NCBI RefSeq assembly: GCF_009389715.1
Contig: NC_052399.1
Location: 13,891,646-13,955,645 of the forward strand
Reading direction: 5' to 3'
DNA from: Phoenix dactylifera
Lineage: Eukaryota > Streptophyta > Magnoliopsida > Arecales > Arecaceae
DNA: 64,000 nucleotides
Translations under genes and position numbers: made by a program
Shown here: one piece after another, positions 9,748 to 64,000 of the stretch
How the letters are laid out: the number at the start of each line of letters is the position of its first letter
Position numbering within the stretch: the first letter of the stretch is position 1
The notes under the pieces: model-generated
Told to the model about the DNA's origin: nothing
Database searches by the model: none
What the model saw: only the letters and a program-made list of their open reading frames with translations

Positions 9748-10609
9748 CGATAATGCGCCTTCTTAACTCGGCGGGGCAGATCTAATCATCTAATCCCAGC
9801 GTAATAGAGCCTCTAAAGCAGTTAAATAAATAATAATAAAAAAAAACTGTTAACAATCTCCAGAGCTGGACAGCAACGTGTTGTCTCATCCTCCGGAGCC
9901 ATCTTTTCTTTTCAGAAAAGCTAGAGCTCAAAAAATAACTATTTTTAAAAGAGCATGAGAGCCCACTGGAGTTCAGAAATAACTCTTTTTTTTTATAGAA
10001 AAATAAGTGTGATCGGTGTTACGAAGATACTCAAAATGAAATTTTCTGTAAAAAATCGTTGTCAACCAGCAACCATCTTCATTAAGCATCTAACAAGCCA
10101 CAAAATTAAACATTCAAGCAGTAGATTTGCAAAGCAAGGTTTCATTTCCCAGCGGAAAAGGTGGTGTCTCAGCCATCCCATCCTGTTTCTGTGAGAAAGG
10201 AAACCTAGTCATAACTCACAAGATCTAGCTTATAAGTAATCAATAATGTGCTTACATGTATCTTAAAATCAAGACATTTTGCCATTCTAAGAAATGATTA
10301 TTCATTATTTCTGAATTTTGTAGTAAAAAATTCAGTTGGGGGAGGGAGGAGACAAAAATGCAAAGACCAATCACTTCCAATAATTTTTCAAGTTCATGAT
10401 TTCCTCCTTTCTATTATCATATAACTTTGCATTTCAGATCTTTCTCACTCGAAGAACCAAACACCTCCTAATAAAATTATGAATATCAAAATTCTAATCG
10501 TTTTCAACAGGAAAAAAATTGAAAAATCATGATTTTGAAATTTAAAACCTCCAAATGCAGCCTAAGTACTGCCCTTTTTATAGCCCATACTTTTGGACAA
10601 GACAGGCCA

Positions 10610-11359
10610 CCTATTGTGAGGACTCATGCGGGCGTGTGTTTAGTCCCATATTGGTTATTTGCTGGATAGATCTTGGGTACTTATACAAGATCAAGGAATC
10701 CAAATAATACCTTCCGGCTAGCTATTTTGGGCAAGGTCCTAGGTTGTTACAAATAGTATCAGAGCGGACCTGGCCCATAACTTATGCAGACTAAGGGATA
10801 CTGCAGCACGGATCCATTGGGGTTAACTATGGACCGATAGTGGTGTTTGTGATTAGATTTGAATGGATTTGAATCCTTCGCCTGACGAGGACGTCGAGGC
10901 TTGAACAGGGGAAGTATGTGAGGATCCATGCGGGTGTGTGTTTAGTCCCACATCGGTTATTTGCTGGGTAGATCTTGGGTACTTATACAGAATTAAGGAA
11001 CCCAAATAATATCTTCCGGTTAGCCATTTTGGGCAAGGTCCTGGATCATTACAAATGGTATCAGAGTGAACCCGACTCATAACCTATGTGGACTAGGGGA
11101 CACTGCAGCACGAATCCATTGGGGCTGACCATGGGCTGATCGTGGTGCTTGTGATTAGATTTGAATAGATTTAAACCCTTAGCCTAACGAGACATCAGGG
11201 CTTGAACGGTGGGAGTATGTGAGGACCCATGCGGGCGTGTATTTAGTCCCACATCGGTTATTTGTTGGGTGGATCTTAGGTACTTATACAAGATCAGGAA
11301 ACCCAAATAATACCTTCCGGCTAACCATTTTGGGCAAGGTCCTGAGTCGTTACACCTAT
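10610..11359 (+). mobile_element. TRIM retrotransposon with three LTRs and two internal domains
   Basis: Three direct repeats of exactly 137 bp occur at 10615-10751, 10917-11053 and 11218-11354. Each begins TGTGAGG and ends TTACA (TG...CA termini of LTRs). After LTR 1 and LTR 2 come two bases and then a primer-binding site close to TGGTATCAGAGC, complementary to the initiator tRNA-Met 3' end (10754-10765 and 11056-11067). Internal domains are 165 and 164 bp and end in purine-rich tracts (for example GAACAGGGGAAG) before the next LTR. The whole array is flanked by the 5-bp duplication CCTAT (10610-10614 and 11355-11359). No coding capacity is present, so it would depend on enzymes from other elements. 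One duplication around three LTRs points to insertion as one unit, or to recombination between copies. Confidence 0.92.
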
Positions 11360-21370: not shown

Positions 21371-45204
<23,834 letters not shown>

Positions 45205-59057: not shown

Positions 59058-59648
59058 TCATACAAACCCGACTTCGGCAAACTGGGGCCTTACCTTGGGC
59101 GGCCGGCCGCGGGGCCTCTTGGTGCCGGCGGCGGCCGAGGCGCCTCCAGGATTCTTGGGGGGGCGACCGCGGGGGCGGGCGACCTTTACGGGGGCGGAGG
59201 GGTCGACGGGCTTCGGGGGTCGGCCGCGGGGGCGGCGGGGACCTGCGGGGGAGAGGGGGAGCTTTGGCTTGGGGGGACGGCCGCGGCCGCGCTTGGGGGG
59301 TGGCGGGGCGTCGGGGCCGGCGCGGAGGTAGCAGTTGTTGCCGAAGACGAGCTCGCCGGCCTCCGTCATGCGGGCAAGGTGCCCCGCCAGCAGCGACGCG
59401 TGCGACGGCGGCAGCTGCCCCCCGTGCGCCGCCTCGATGTGCTTCGATATCGCCGACTTGCTCGACCCGCTCTTCTCGTCCAGCGCCGAGATCGCCGTCA
59501 AAATCATCTGAAGCATAAAAAAAGGTGGATGAAATCTATAAACCAAGAAGGAGAGGTGAATTAGGGTTTGGCATTTTTTATGAAGTTTTGGGCTGACCTC
59601 GGGGTAGGGGGGGAAGGAGGGGAGCTTGGGATCTTCGTCAGGGGCCAT
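59058..59648 (-). CDS. HMGA (HMG-I/Y) chromatin protein with linker-histone-like domain
   Basis: Nuclear architectural protein that binds AT-rich minor grooves. Exon 1 is 59648-59598 (MAPDEDPKLPSFPPYPE) and exon 2 is 59507-59058, joined in phase by a GT-AG intron, giving 166 aa. Residues about 14-81 form a histone H1/H5-type globular domain (YPEMILTAISALDEKSGSS, then SKHIEAAHGG and GELVFGNNCYLRAG). Four AT-hooks follow at about 89-97, 108-116, 128-135 and 147-155, each with a GRPPK core. This order and length match plant HMGA proteins. Exon 2 is very GC-rich. The C-terminal AAG GTA AGG looks like a splice donor but also encodes KVR in a family-like ending; I take it as coding. The intron lies at the family's usual position before the globular domain. 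Confidence 0.92.
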   Translation of the reverse strand: MAPDEDPKLPSFPPYPEVSPKLHKKCQTLIHLSFLVYRFHPPFFMLQMILTAISALDEKSGSSKSAISKHIEAAHGGQLPPSHASLLAGHLARMTEAGELVFGNNCYLRAGPDAPPPPKRGRGRPPKPKLPLSPAGPRRPRGRPPKPVDPSAPVKVARPRGRPPKNPGGASAAAGTKRPRGRPPKVRPQFAEVGFV

Positions 59649-60805
59649 GAGAGAGACAGAGACCGAGAGGGGGGGAAAGGGAGAGAGGCGGTGTGGTGGG
59701 TTTGGGTTGGGATGCGAGGAAACGAGGAAGGGGTTAATTAAAGGTTGAGTGGATCAGTGGAGAGGTTAAAGATGGGTTTTGGGAAAGAACGCGGTTCGCC
59801 TCGCCGGCACCTGCGACCGCCGACAGGATCTAGCTTGTCCTTGCGAGTCAACGCTTGGCTGGATTTGCCAGTGGACGGACGGCCGTGTAAGATTGGCCAG
59901 ATCTGGATCAAAGCCGAGGTCCGAGTTTTTGGACCGGAAAGGTTTTCTCTTTTCTGGATGGATTCAAGGTCAGGTCAAGTTGGGATCCGGTCGCAGGTCT
60001 CATGTACTGCGTAGCATTCAGCGTCCATGTCAGGCATCAGTCCAGGGAAATTTAGAGATCCAAATCAAGGCCATAAAAGCTGCTGTGATCTGGATTTGGA
60101 CCCTTGCGTTTGCAGCAGGTTGTAGAACAGTGTGGGCATTTGTCAGGACTGCTTCAGGCACAACACCAGGTGGCAAGCTGATCGTAGAATCCTGTCAGAT
60201 AGAGTGGATTTTGGTCTCTCCAGTTTACGAACAGCCTGTTTCAACCAGCCACCTGGATTCTAAGCCAAAATGTGCATCTCAAATTGCTTCCGTATTTTTT
60301 TCTTTTTCTTTTTGAGAAACCGGGAATCCGTCCAATTCATTGAGATGAATACAAACAGTAAGGGGTGTGCAGAAAACAGCAAGCTCTCAGTCATCTGTTA
60401 TCACATGATGAGTTTGGTATAAGAAAGGGAGTGAGATGAGAGAGAGTTGAAGGGGAGTTTATGTGCATCAGTCCTTCCACTCAAATTGCTTACCCTTGTC
60501 TTGACTGGAACGAGAAGAAAGAGTTTAAGAGTCCTCTGCTTTAGATTTGCTTGGATGATTGGATAATCTCCAAGTGTTTCTATTTTCAGCTACAAAAAGT
60601 TGCGTGATGCTTAAGAAGAGTGGAATCTAACAGTGCCAAAGATTTTTTTTTTCCCCCGAGACTGTATTTCTCGGTGAGCCGTCCATCCATTCCTAAATAT
60701 TGCATTATGGAATGCTACAATATGGAGAAATCTTGTCCACCTACATGTAAGCATTATGATGAAAATAACACAAGCATTGCCTATTAGATTTTTCCCCATT
60801 ATGTG
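59649..60805. other. HMGA upstream region and spacer
   Basis: The first 100 bases are purine-rich on the plus strand and probably form the HMGA leader and promoter on the minus strand. The rest holds open frames without recognisable domains (for example 59779-60315) and a T/C-run near 60645. No gene supported. Confidence 0.45.
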
Positions 60806-61169
60806 TGTGAGGACCCATGCGGGCGTGTGTTTAGTCCCACATCGATTATTCGCCGAAAAAATTTTGGATACTTATATAGGACTAAGGAACCAAAAAAATT
60901 CTTCCAGCTAGTCTTTTTAGACTAGATCTTGTATTATTGCAAATGGTATTAAAGTGGATCTAATCTATAACCTATGTGAACTAAGGAACACTGCAGCACA
61001 GGTTCATAGAGACTGACTGCGAGCCAATTGTAGTGCTTATGATTAGATTTAAACTCTTATCCCGATGAGGTCGTCAAGGTTTGAACGGAAAAAGTATGTG
61101 TCGACTTATGCGGGCGTGTGTTTAGTCTCACATCGGTTATTATCCGAGCAGATCTTAAGTACTTATATT
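60806..61169 (+). mobile_element. TRIM copy, diverged, 3' LTR truncated
   Basis: The 5' LTR spans 60806-60941 (136 bp), starting TGTGAGGACCCATGCGGGC and ending TTGCA. A degenerate primer-binding site TGGTATTAAAGT starts at 60944. The internal domain ends in a purine-rich stretch and is followed at 61097 by a second LTR beginning TGTGTCGAC. That LTR matches the family only to about 61169. It is the same family as the array at 10610-11359. Confidence 0.8.
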
Positions 61170-62257
61170 GCTCCTAGAAATCTAGAAAAGCATTCACAAA
61201 TGCATGCCTCAATTTCTTCCTATGCTTGCCCATTCATAACAAACAAAACCCTACGTGTTATATACACATGAACTTTAGAAAGGAGTATAGTTGTCAAATT
61301 TACTCCAAGACATTCTTGATTAACGGTTCGCGGACATACACTGAATTCTCCCTTCCATGGATAACCACCTGCATTGCAAGCGCCATCACTAGCCCAAAAA
61401 TAGCAGAAATAGCAAACGACATCCTCCTAAGAGGTTTTTTTTTAAAAAAAAAAATTGCTTTCACTCTATTCTTCATCTCCACATGATAAGAACTTGGTTT
61501 ATACTAAGAGGAGTGCAAGCCAATTTCCGAGTATTAAATGGTGGAACATTTGAACTCTATGATGCCTGTATCTCGGTGACAGTAGATTGGCTGGGTCCAT
61601 CATGAGCACCCTCTTCTTTGCGACAAACTCACCCACTACCAAACGCGCAAAAACAGTTGATACAACTAGGTGACCAGATCACAAAATAACATAAAATAAA
61701 TTTCATTCATTCCAATCTTTGGAAGAATATACCAAGTAAAATGCTCTCGTTTTTATTGTTTTCATTAGGTGGTAATGGAAACGAATTGAAATGAATGCAG
61801 GAGCCTCTTTTACAGAATAATATAAAAGAATTACAGAACAGTCTGGAATATATCAATTCAAGAAATAATTTAGTCTTTTGCATCAATTGCATGTCAGCCC
61901 GAAGTAGATAGGTTAGTTATACCTAACTCATGAGAAAAACAACTCTATGAAGTTGGCACATCATCGTCGGGACCTGGAATCAAGTGAGGACCTGATTTTA
62001 AAAACCTTGGATATATATTTTACATAAGAAAAAGAACCTTGGATGGAAGGGGTTCTCCGACAACATCCTCCTAAATGACTAGCATCTGATTCATGCCATA
62101 TATTCGCAAGCGCTTCGAAACTCTCGTCTCCAAAACACTCGGATGGCACGAATCAGTGCAGTTGCCAACAATTGCCGGTGCTAGCTCAGTTGGCTACTCG
62201 CCCTTGGGAGAAAGTTTGGGATTCAAATCCTATATATTTCTAAAAATTATATCAAGC
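61170..62257. other. Spacer with no supported gene
   Basis: AT-rich. It includes a tRNA-like stretch near 62172-62235, listed separately. Short frames at 61226-61486 and elsewhere have no recognisable content. Confidence 0.5.
62172..62235 (+). other. tRNA-like relic (A and B boxes only)
   Basis: TAGCTCAGTTGG is a perfect tRNA A-box (D-arm) sequence, and GGGATTCAAATCC resembles a B box (T-arm) about 40 bases later. The anticodon arm and a matching 3' acceptor strand are missing, so it is not a functional tRNA. It may be the head of a tRNA-derived SINE. A TRIM begins within about 30 bases. Confidence 0.45.
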
Positions 62258-62705
62258 ATAGTTGTAACAACCCAGAACCTCACCCAAAATGGCTAGCCGG
62301 AAGGTATTATTTGGGTTCCTTGATCCTGTATAAGTACCCAAGATCTACCCAGCGAATAATCGATGTGGGACTAAACACACGCCCGCACAGGTTCTTACAT
62401 ACTCCCCCCGTTCAAGCCCTGACGTCCTTGTCAGGCTAAGAGTTCAAATTCATTCAAATCTAATCACAAACACCACGATCAGTCTGTGGTCAACCCCAAT
62501 GGATCTGTGCTGCAGTGTCCTCTAGTCCACATAAGTTACGGGCCGGGTCCGCTCGATACCATTTGTAACAACCCAGGACCTCACCCAAAATGGCTAGCCG
62601 GAAGGTATTATTTGGGTTCCTTGATCCTGTATAAGTACCCAAGATCTACCCAGCGAATAACCGATGTGGGAGTAAACACACGCCCGCATAGGTCCTCACA
62701 ATAGT
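62258..62705 (-). mobile_element. Complete TRIM retrotransposon, 438 bp
   Basis: The element 62263-62700 has two LTRs of exactly 137 bp (62263-62399 and 62564-62700) that differ at about six positions by eye. It is flanked by perfect 5-bp duplications ATAGT (62258-62262 and 62701-62705). In element orientation it begins TGTGAGGACC, has a primer-binding site TGGTATCGAGCGG next to the 5' LTR and a purine tract GAACGGGGGGAGTA before the 3' LTR. There is no coding region. It is the clean reference copy of the family in this window. Confidence 0.93.
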
Positions 62706-62767
62706 TGTATAATAGCATGACTTTTGATATTTCAATCATGCATGCCCTCTATAGTGTACATCTTTGT

Positions 62768-63153
62768 TGTAAACTAAAACGCCAGCCGAAAGATATTATT
62801 TAGGTTCTGCTCAGTGCATAACCGATGCGGGACTAAATATATATGCGTATGGATCCCCACATACTTCTCCGTTTAAATTATAATATCCTCACTAGACTAA
62901 AGATCCAAATTCAATCATAATCACCACGATCAATCCGTGGTCAGCCCCAATTGGCCTACGCTACGATGCCCCTTATTCATATGGCTCATAGGCCGGGTTC
63001 ATTCTAATACCATTTGCAATAACTCAAGATTTTATCCAAAAAGGCTAGCCAGAAGATATTATTTAGATTTCTTAGCCCTATATAAGTACCCAAGATCCAT
63101 CCAATGTATAGCCAATATGGGTCTAAATATATATACCCGCATGAATCCTCATA
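62768..63153 (-). mobile_element. TRIM copy, old and diverged
   Basis: LTR-like blocks at 62768-62861 (with internal deletions) and 63015-63153 flank the same internal domain (AATCCGTGGTCAGCCCCAAT is recognisable). CpG-type changes are frequent, and no target duplication is visible. It lies only about 60 bases from the complete copy, in the same orientation. Confidence 0.78.
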
Positions 63154-64000
63154 ATATTAGTTTGCTCAGCAATATTTTAGTGCCTCATTTTCTATCGAGC
63201 ATGAGTTATTGCTATCGATTTAACAATGTATTATATTTATTTTTACGGACTACACATGTCTCGGCAAATTATGTTCAAGACAGATATTGTATCGTGAAAT
63301 TAGCTTGTTGATTTTTCAAAAGGAAGCTGACCATGATATTCCAGAAGAATCTTATTGAGGCTGATTTGCATATCATGCCTGCAATCCTTTTATTTCTTTA
63401 AGATGACATGAGTAGACAAACAGCATAAATTTGAAGAGTAGACCAAAAACTACCTCTGTCTCACAATGAAATTTTCAAGTTCTGTTCTGTATCATCATTT
63501 CCTCGCAAAGTTCAAGAAATCCAATATGGTAAGGCTTATTTAAGACAAGAAGACACAAGGAGATCAACATGTTTGATCCTAAGCTACCAAAGCACCCCAA
63601 TTACTAACTGAGATTGTTTCCTGTAAGGTCCACAGACAAAGCCTGAACACAGGTTGCAAAAAATGAAAAAATATAAAGCATCGACGGTATCAAGTTAACC
63701 CATAGACTCAATGGGTCATGATATCATCAACCTGCCATCAGTTAGATGACAGAGTTAAAACTTTTTAGGCTCATGATAACAAAAAAAAAAACTTCTATTA
63801 GACATCTAACATTGTGTTGCCCATCCCAAGCACGGATAAGAAGGACTAAGGATCTATATCAGGTTGGCAGCCAGACATGTAAACAAGTCAAATTTTTATA
63901 AGTTCTATTCAAATATTCACCAACGTTAGCATTTCATATTGCACTTATGAAATGAAGTCCCAGCCAGGAATAGACTTCTGTTAAAAGGCAAAAACGTGAA
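63154..64000. other. Right end of the window, no gene seen
   Basis: AT-rich, with no recognisable frames. CCAAGCACGGATAA (near 63827) resembles CCAAGCCCGGATAA near 48727, right after Au SINE copy 2. This hints at a shared repeat that I cannot classify. Confidence 0.45.

Follow-up and report, generated by a model that had tools for sequence, protein, structure and literature searches.

A tandem TRIM with three LTRs in date palm: probable formation before, at or soon after insertion, and putative snRNA-type promoter signals in its LTRs

In a 64-kb stretch of date palm (Phoenix dactylifera) DNA, called here the window, positions 10610-11359 are occupied by a tandemly arrayed terminal-repeat retrotransposon in miniature (TRIM) of the L3I2 class: a non-coding long terminal repeat (LTR) retrotransposon of about 440 bp that carries one extra LTR-plus-internal unit. 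The element is dead and decayed. The distribution of changes among its repeated parts disfavours late unequal recombination and suggests that the tandem arose before, at or soon after insertion; on balance, with a confidence slightly better than even, we prefer insertion as a ready-made tandem and infer that the doubled form was already present at integration. In addition, the LTRs of the family read like the promoter of a U-type small nuclear RNA (snRNA) gene, with a spacing near that used by RNA polymerase III (Pol III) and with a putative function.

The element lies on the plus strand in the order L1-I1-L2-I2-L3 (10615-11354). LTR 1 (L1, 10615-10751), the shared middle LTR 2 (L2, 10917-11053) and LTR 3 (L3, 11218-11354) are each 137 bp long. 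Internal domain 1 (I1, 10752-10916) has 165 bp, with a 2-nt spacer, a sequence resembling a primer-binding site (PBS) at 10754-10765 and a purine-rich end at 10907-10914; internal domain 2 (I2, 11054-11217) has 164 bp, with the corresponding parts at 11056-11067 and 11208-11215. Tandem Repeats Finder reported the whole as a single array with a period of 302 bp and 2.4 copies. The sequence-only reading that preceded this work had described a TRIM with three LTRs and two internal segments of these lengths, which proved accurate to the base. The element has short TG...CA LTRs and short non-coding internal domains, as expected of a TRIM, and no stop-to-stop frame of at least 95 codons overlaps it. 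A PBS beside the 5' LTR and a purine tract ahead of the 3' LTR can be read directly in the sequence; the PBS-like TGGTATCAGAGC stands downstream of L1 and of L2, with one mismatch each, and we take it to be complementary to initiator tRNA-Met. A window-wide Rfam scan at gathering scores gave no match at the element and one elsewhere, ARAGORN detected no tRNA in the window, and scans of a viral collection with an LTR 21-mer and with the LTR-PBS junction gave no matches in either case.

The element is bounded by a direct duplication of CCTAT at 10610-10614 and 11355-11359. Such a 5/5 match at both outer edges has a chance of 1/1024, and a second member of the family described below has its own 5/5 duplication, ACTAT, so the duplication proposed in the sequence-only reading does not look like a coincidence. 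An additional CCTAT at 11083 is situated within I2 and is irrelevant to the target duplication. When the bases flanking L2 were read, no second duplication was found, because these bases belong to the internal domain or to the PBS lead-in: AGTA ahead of L2 and of L3 is internal-domain sequence, while AATAG after L1 and AATGG after L2 run into the PBS. L2 thus needs no insertion of its own, and a second insertion at L2 was ruled out. Two independent insertions at the same place would account for the presence of two internal domains and for nothing beyond it; given that there is neither a duplication at L2 nor a broken LTR, we regard this route as having practically no probability. An assembly artefact was also ruled out: the repeats are 12-18% apart, and differences of this size would make duplication during assembly unlikely.

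Reference copies were sought with an LTR profile search of the window, and matches above the inclusion threshold were retained. They amount to nine LTRs in four elements, namely the L3I2 copy and three further copies, E2, E3 and E4, whose LTRs are designated a and b. E2 (62263-62700, minus strand) is a two-LTR copy whose LTRs differ from each other at 6 of 137 positions and is the nearest reference. E3 (62770-63153, minus strand) is older and its 3' LTR has deletions; E4 (60806-61175, plus strand) is also older and its 3' LTR is truncated. Duplications of 5 bp (CCTAT and ACTAT) were found in two of the four elements, while no matching duplication was found in E3 or E4, both of which have damaged 3' LTRs.

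The two routes that the sequence-only reading had correctly named, insertion of a tandem and unequal recombination, leave different traces. Recombination at the site predicts that I1 and I2 were identical at birth, that their divergence does not exceed that of L1 and L3, and that changes in L2 recur in L3 towards one end and in L1 towards the opposite end. Tandem insertion predicts that L1 and L3 were equalised by reverse transcription, whereas I1 and I2 may be older. It was found that L1 and L2 differ at 17 of 137 positions, L1 and L3 at 16 and L2 and L3 at 17, all by transitions. The LTRs form a star, and L2 is thus of the same age as the outer pair. In 23 of the 25 variable columns the two agreeing LTRs also match both E2 LTRs, so almost every change is confined to a single LTR; columns 76 and 133 are the two exceptions. 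I1 and I2 differ at 30 of 164 positions, 27 of them by transitions, and at one gap column; their divergence is not reduced, whereas a later duplication would require this. The all-transition pattern of the LTRs, at first a candidate for a special feature, was dropped in view of the similar proportion in the internal domains.

Comparison of the internal domains with that of E2 gave a similar picture. Among the 40 columns in which I1, I2 and E2 are not all equal, I1 agrees with E2 in 15, I2 with E2 in 16 and I1 with I2 in 9. We counted an agreement as clearly derived when at least one of the older copies sided with the odd sequence and none with the agreeing pair, and found four such columns for I1 and E2, three for I2 and E2 and two for I1 and I2; in 18 others the odd one is apparently derived, in 12 the outgroups conflict, and one is a gap in both. 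I1 and I2 are thus not visibly closer to each other, as far as these columns tell, than to the unrelated element E2. One LTR column, 76, in which L1 and L3 have A and L2 retains the G of the other copies, is as expected if a single reverse transcription regenerated both L1 and L3.

A late unequal exchange would give the same structure and the same single duplication. However, it predicts that the left part of L2 resembles L3 and its right part L1, and that I1 is close to I2; neither was seen. In a crude likelihood calculation with nine settings, formation at insertion was favoured 3.5-24 fold over an exchange at a uniformly random later time, and we consider the late route very unlikely. If there was an exchange, the upper 95% bound on its time is 0.20, 0.27 or 0.33 of the element's life for one, two or three shared changes, respectively, a bound that uses branch lengths derived from the same data (8.3 LTR and 15 internal changes). 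All these figures on the route depend on a small number of sites, on transitions that recur and on a single good reference copy.

An early exchange is a stronger competitor. A two-LTR element would have inserted with CCTAT, and its 3' LTR would soon afterwards have paired unequally with the 5' LTR of the sister chromatid or homologue, leaving the L3I2 form. This accounts for there being one target duplication and a middle LTR common to both units, and an exchange in roughly the first third of the element's life would also produce the star pattern. Column 48, where L1, L2 and L3 have T and the six other LTRs have C or A, fits one common source, as it does under tandem insertion. Unequal crossing over is moreover the mechanism inferred for the Wukong element of maize (PMC4528315) and one of the two mechanisms offered for Cassandra (PMC7215508). 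On the other side, the exchange has to be early, and I1 and I2 are nominally more diverged than L1 and L3 (30/164 against 16/137, Fisher P = 0.15). We regard this route as possible, with a probability clearly below even.

In a further route, a resident two-LTR copy would have acquired sequence of another family member, either by gene conversion or by homologous recombination with a one-LTR circle, so that I1 and I2 would differ in origin. The best internal topology indeed joins I1 with E2 rather than with I2 (approximately unbiased (AU) test, 0.80 against 0.21 and 0.21), the C-to-T changes at internal columns 31, 72 and 95 are common to I1 and E2 while I2 keeps C, and LTR column 133, near I1, groups L1 with E2, though E3a and E4a share that base. 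The signal is not significant: transitions of this kind recur, and a topology that pairs I1 with I2, or I2 with E2, costs only 1.25 log units. We judge such a mixed origin improbable.

Several observations weigh against insertion as a ready-made tandem. Judged by E2, the internal domain changes at 1.20 times the rate of the LTR, so that 24.0 differences between I1 and I2 would be expected under a common start; the 30 observed are not a significant excess (P of at least 30 = 0.13). At LTR column 133 the C is common to L2 and L3, not to L1 and L3. The outgroups conflict, leaving the column without polarity, in 17 of the 25 variable LTR columns and 12 of the 40 internal ones; E3 and E4 lie 21-35% from the LTR, internal and E2 sequences, the sites are few and transitions recur. 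The AU tests reject no topology, whether among the three internal or the five LTR ones, and the best LTR topology splits L1, L2 and L3, though by only 1.6-1.7 log units over those uniting them. By bp-RELL (bootstrap resampling of estimated log-likelihoods) alone, ((L1,L2),L3) falls outside the 95% set, at 0.041; its AU value is 0.53. Recombination during roughly the first third of its life is almost as good a fit, the authors on Wukong inferred unequal crossing over (PMC4528315), and in the rice study both tandem insertion and later recombination remain possible (PMC11899658). The proposal of the sequence-only reading that the copy is clean enough to test its route, and that alignment and trees of the LTRs and internal domains would do so, therefore holds in part: the LTRs came out star-like, I1 and I2 no closer, the timing was constrained and late recombination made unlikely, while the trees rejected no topology and tandem insertion was not separated from early recombination.

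If the element was inserted as a ready-made tandem, as we prefer, a concatemeric cDNA may have been made by template switching during reverse transcription, or alternatively by reverse transcription of a read-through transcript whose template was tandem or circular. An autonomous partner would have supplied the integrase for a single integration of this cDNA, after which each part would have decayed independently, mainly by transitions of the C-to-T type. The tandem copy gives a modest constraint on timing, with formation at or near insertion.

The Kimura two-parameter distances between the LTRs are 0.133-0.143. At the grass rate of 1.3e-8 per site per year, which is assumed here, they correspond to 5.1-5.5 million years, and the E2 LTRs to 1.75 million years; the L3I2 copy is thus roughly 5 million years old at that rate. 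Of the changes with a direction, L3 has one C>T and five G>A, and L1 and L2 together have 11 and five; a strand bias in L3 was considered and dropped at Fisher P = 0.056. After exclusion of three A>G changes, 18 of the 22 C>T or G>A changes fall at CHH, two at CHG and two at CG, compared with 44, 10 and 6 such sites in L2, so these 22 changes are not enriched at CG.

The tandem L3I2 structure itself is already known and common in plants (PMC4717578, PMC4528315, PMC7215508), and the date palm copy is one more example; the sequence-only reading had likewise stated that plants have tandem TRIMs. Tandem TRIMs were reported in 129 subfamilies and in 35 of 43 genomes, one of them being figured inside a single duplication, and L3I2 was the commonest tandem form in maize, with 63 of 93 arrays (Gao et al. 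2016, PMC4717578). The likeness to that class concerns structure. Wukong is similar in having three-LTR forms (8 of 89 intact elements) and 5-bp duplications, but its LTRs have 230 bp and its internal domain 72 bp, against 137 and 164/165 bp here (PMC4528315). The tandem LTR retrotransposons described from rice and other plants share internal LTRs within one duplication and raise the same question of route, although they are LTR retrotransposons in general, with gypsy prominent; at the example locus the LTRs are 85-89% and the internal domains 94% identical (PMC11899658).

The second feature of the family is found within its LTRs. The upstream sequence element (USE) of plant snRNA genes has the consensus RTCCCACATCG (PMC4448504, PMC9845283). 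An exact USE, GTCCCACATCG, is present in L2 (10945-10955) and in L3 (11246-11256), and exact copies also occur in the LTRs of other family members (60834-60844 and 62361-62371); in L1 the element (10643-10653) has two mismatches. Altogether the USE is exact in four of the nine LTRs (L2, L3, E2b and E4a), has one mismatch in E2a, E3b and E4b and two in L1, and no match within two mismatches was found in E3a. Eight matches with at most one mismatch exist in the whole window, against 0.74 expected, and seven of them fall in LTRs of this family. Among 1,000,000 Markov copies of L2, 93 hold an exact USE and 10 of these also a TATA 20-39 nt further on; the LTRs are mutual copies, so the USE counts as one event, and the motif was noticed before testing, so these rates are flattering. 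In the viral collection, a looser USE-TATA pattern matched one contig (L001).

Downstream of the USE there is a TATA-like box, TTATACA, at 10681-10687 in L1, at 10983-10989 in L2, where 27 nt separate it from the USE, and at 11284-11290 in L3. As counted by one script, TTATACA or TTATATA stands 27 nt past the end of the USE in six LTRs (L1, L2, L3, E2a, E2b and E4a). The TATA-like sequence is TTATATA in E3a and TTATATT in E4b, and E3b has lost that stretch. In plant snRNA genes the USE and TATA are three helical turns apart for Pol III and four for RNA polymerase II (Pol II) (PMC9845283); barley U3 has 25 bp between them and starts about 23 bp after the TATA (PMC6181210), and the distance from the USE to the transcription start is 54-55 bp for Pol III and 66-67 bp for Pol II (PMC10745700). 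The spacing of 27 nt in the LTR is nearer to that of Pol III and exact for neither. Conservation between subgroups of the family is 0.824 at the USE (LTR positions 29-39), which ranks 26th of 127 windows, the mean over all columns being 0.729; it is above average without being a peak, and the windows of the TATA and of AATAATAT are higher. The 15 best-kept 11-base windows lie in the TATA region, in the AATAATAT stretch and at positions 23-37, which overlap the USE.

We tentatively suggest, at clearly less than an even chance, that this TRIM family drives its RNA from a putative U-snRNA-type promoter, USE plus TATA-like box, in the U3 part of the LTR, which would be a third kind of small-RNA-gene promoter in TRIMs, in addition to the 5S and tRNA kinds. 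A gene-external promoter would normally be lost on retrotransposition, while replication of the LTR would restore U3 from the 3' LTR. Transcription by Pol III would begin near LTR position 96 if the start lies about 23 bp past the TATA, as in barley U3. A T4 run is present at LTR positions 111-114 in L1, L2 (11027-11030), L3 and both E2 LTRs, and E3a and E4a have T5 runs at almost the same position. Seven LTRs have both a TATA-like box and a run of at least four T; measured to the final TTTT of the run, the distance from the first base of the box is 44 nt in six of them and 43 nt in the seventh. Genomic RNA could start in the 5' LTR, bypass the T run there and stop at that of the 3' LTR, which would leave a short R, and inefficient termination at that point might in addition give rise to tandem forms. 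It is doubtful that Pol III transcribes the entire element, because the T run would stop the RNA within the 5' LTR, after about 15-20 nt, unless it is bypassed. None of the five internal domains has a T4 run, which is uninformative since 47-70% of Markov copies also lack one (30-53% have one). A Pol II start, with an AATAAT stretch acting in 3'-end formation, would be as plausible.

Cassandra is the obvious comparison, as it also has tandem TRIM arrays and promoter signals of a small-RNA gene in its LTR (PMC7215508, PMC10853983). The Cassandra LTR contains a 5S rRNA promoter, whereas the present element instead has a snRNA-type USE and a TATA-like box. Identity with Cassandra was rejected on the grounds that the LTR gave no 5S rRNA-like Rfam match at gathering scores, a threshold below which a fragment could still lie. 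According to PMC10853983, its Pol III promoter sets Cassandra apart from every other known TRIM; in the same year Helenus and Ajax were proposed to carry tRNA and 5S signals (PMC10886601). The TRIMp3 group of Cassandra, Helenus and Ajax is thus alike in having such signals in the LTR, and 5-bp duplications as here are described for plant and fungal Helenus and for Ajax, but the TRIMp3 signals are of 5S or tRNA origin and not of the gene-external snRNA kind (PMC10886601).

Neither PMC10886601 nor PMC10853983 mentions snRNA, small nuclear or upstream sequence element anywhere in its text. In the text of PMC4717578 snRNA, upstream sequence element, TATA and the USE core are likewise absent, and small nuclear occurs once, in read filtering. 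No TRIM or LTR with a USE was found among the literature matches listed, mostly open-access texts, and a snRNA-type promoter would, if it works, be new for TRIMs. Similar motifs may occur in the repeats of further flowering plants, and FRetro129 and FRetro64 have an 11-bp LTR motif in common (PMC3281118). Should the USE prove functional, TRIMs would have acquired a third class of small-RNA-gene promoter, and their USE-bearing copies would be scattered snRNA-type promoters. This would matter for annotating U6 promoters and USE-driven small RNAs, for example in dodder (PMC10226582).

The other three family members are clustered within 2.4 kb (60806-63153), one inversely oriented, and the gap between E2 and E3 is about 70 bp. 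In three of the four elements TAT directly precedes the 5' LTR (CCTAT, ACTAT and AATAT, at 10605-10614, 62701-62710 and 63154-63163; E4 has GTG), a possible target preference.

Elsewhere in the window, Rfam IsrR matches the minus strand at 31-124 (76.4 bits), where plus-strand frame 1 reads a short protein stretch that resembles a chlorophyll-binding photosystem protein; the segment is probably a plastid DNA insertion and not an RNA gene. Open frames at 27948-29381 and 31333-31791 have no Pfam match; within 27948-31791 they resemble part of a plant IRE/IREH-type kinase gene. Pfam domains were found in exon-like frames at 1917-2567 and 59061-59753, namely Myb DNA-binding and, on the minus strand, linker histone.
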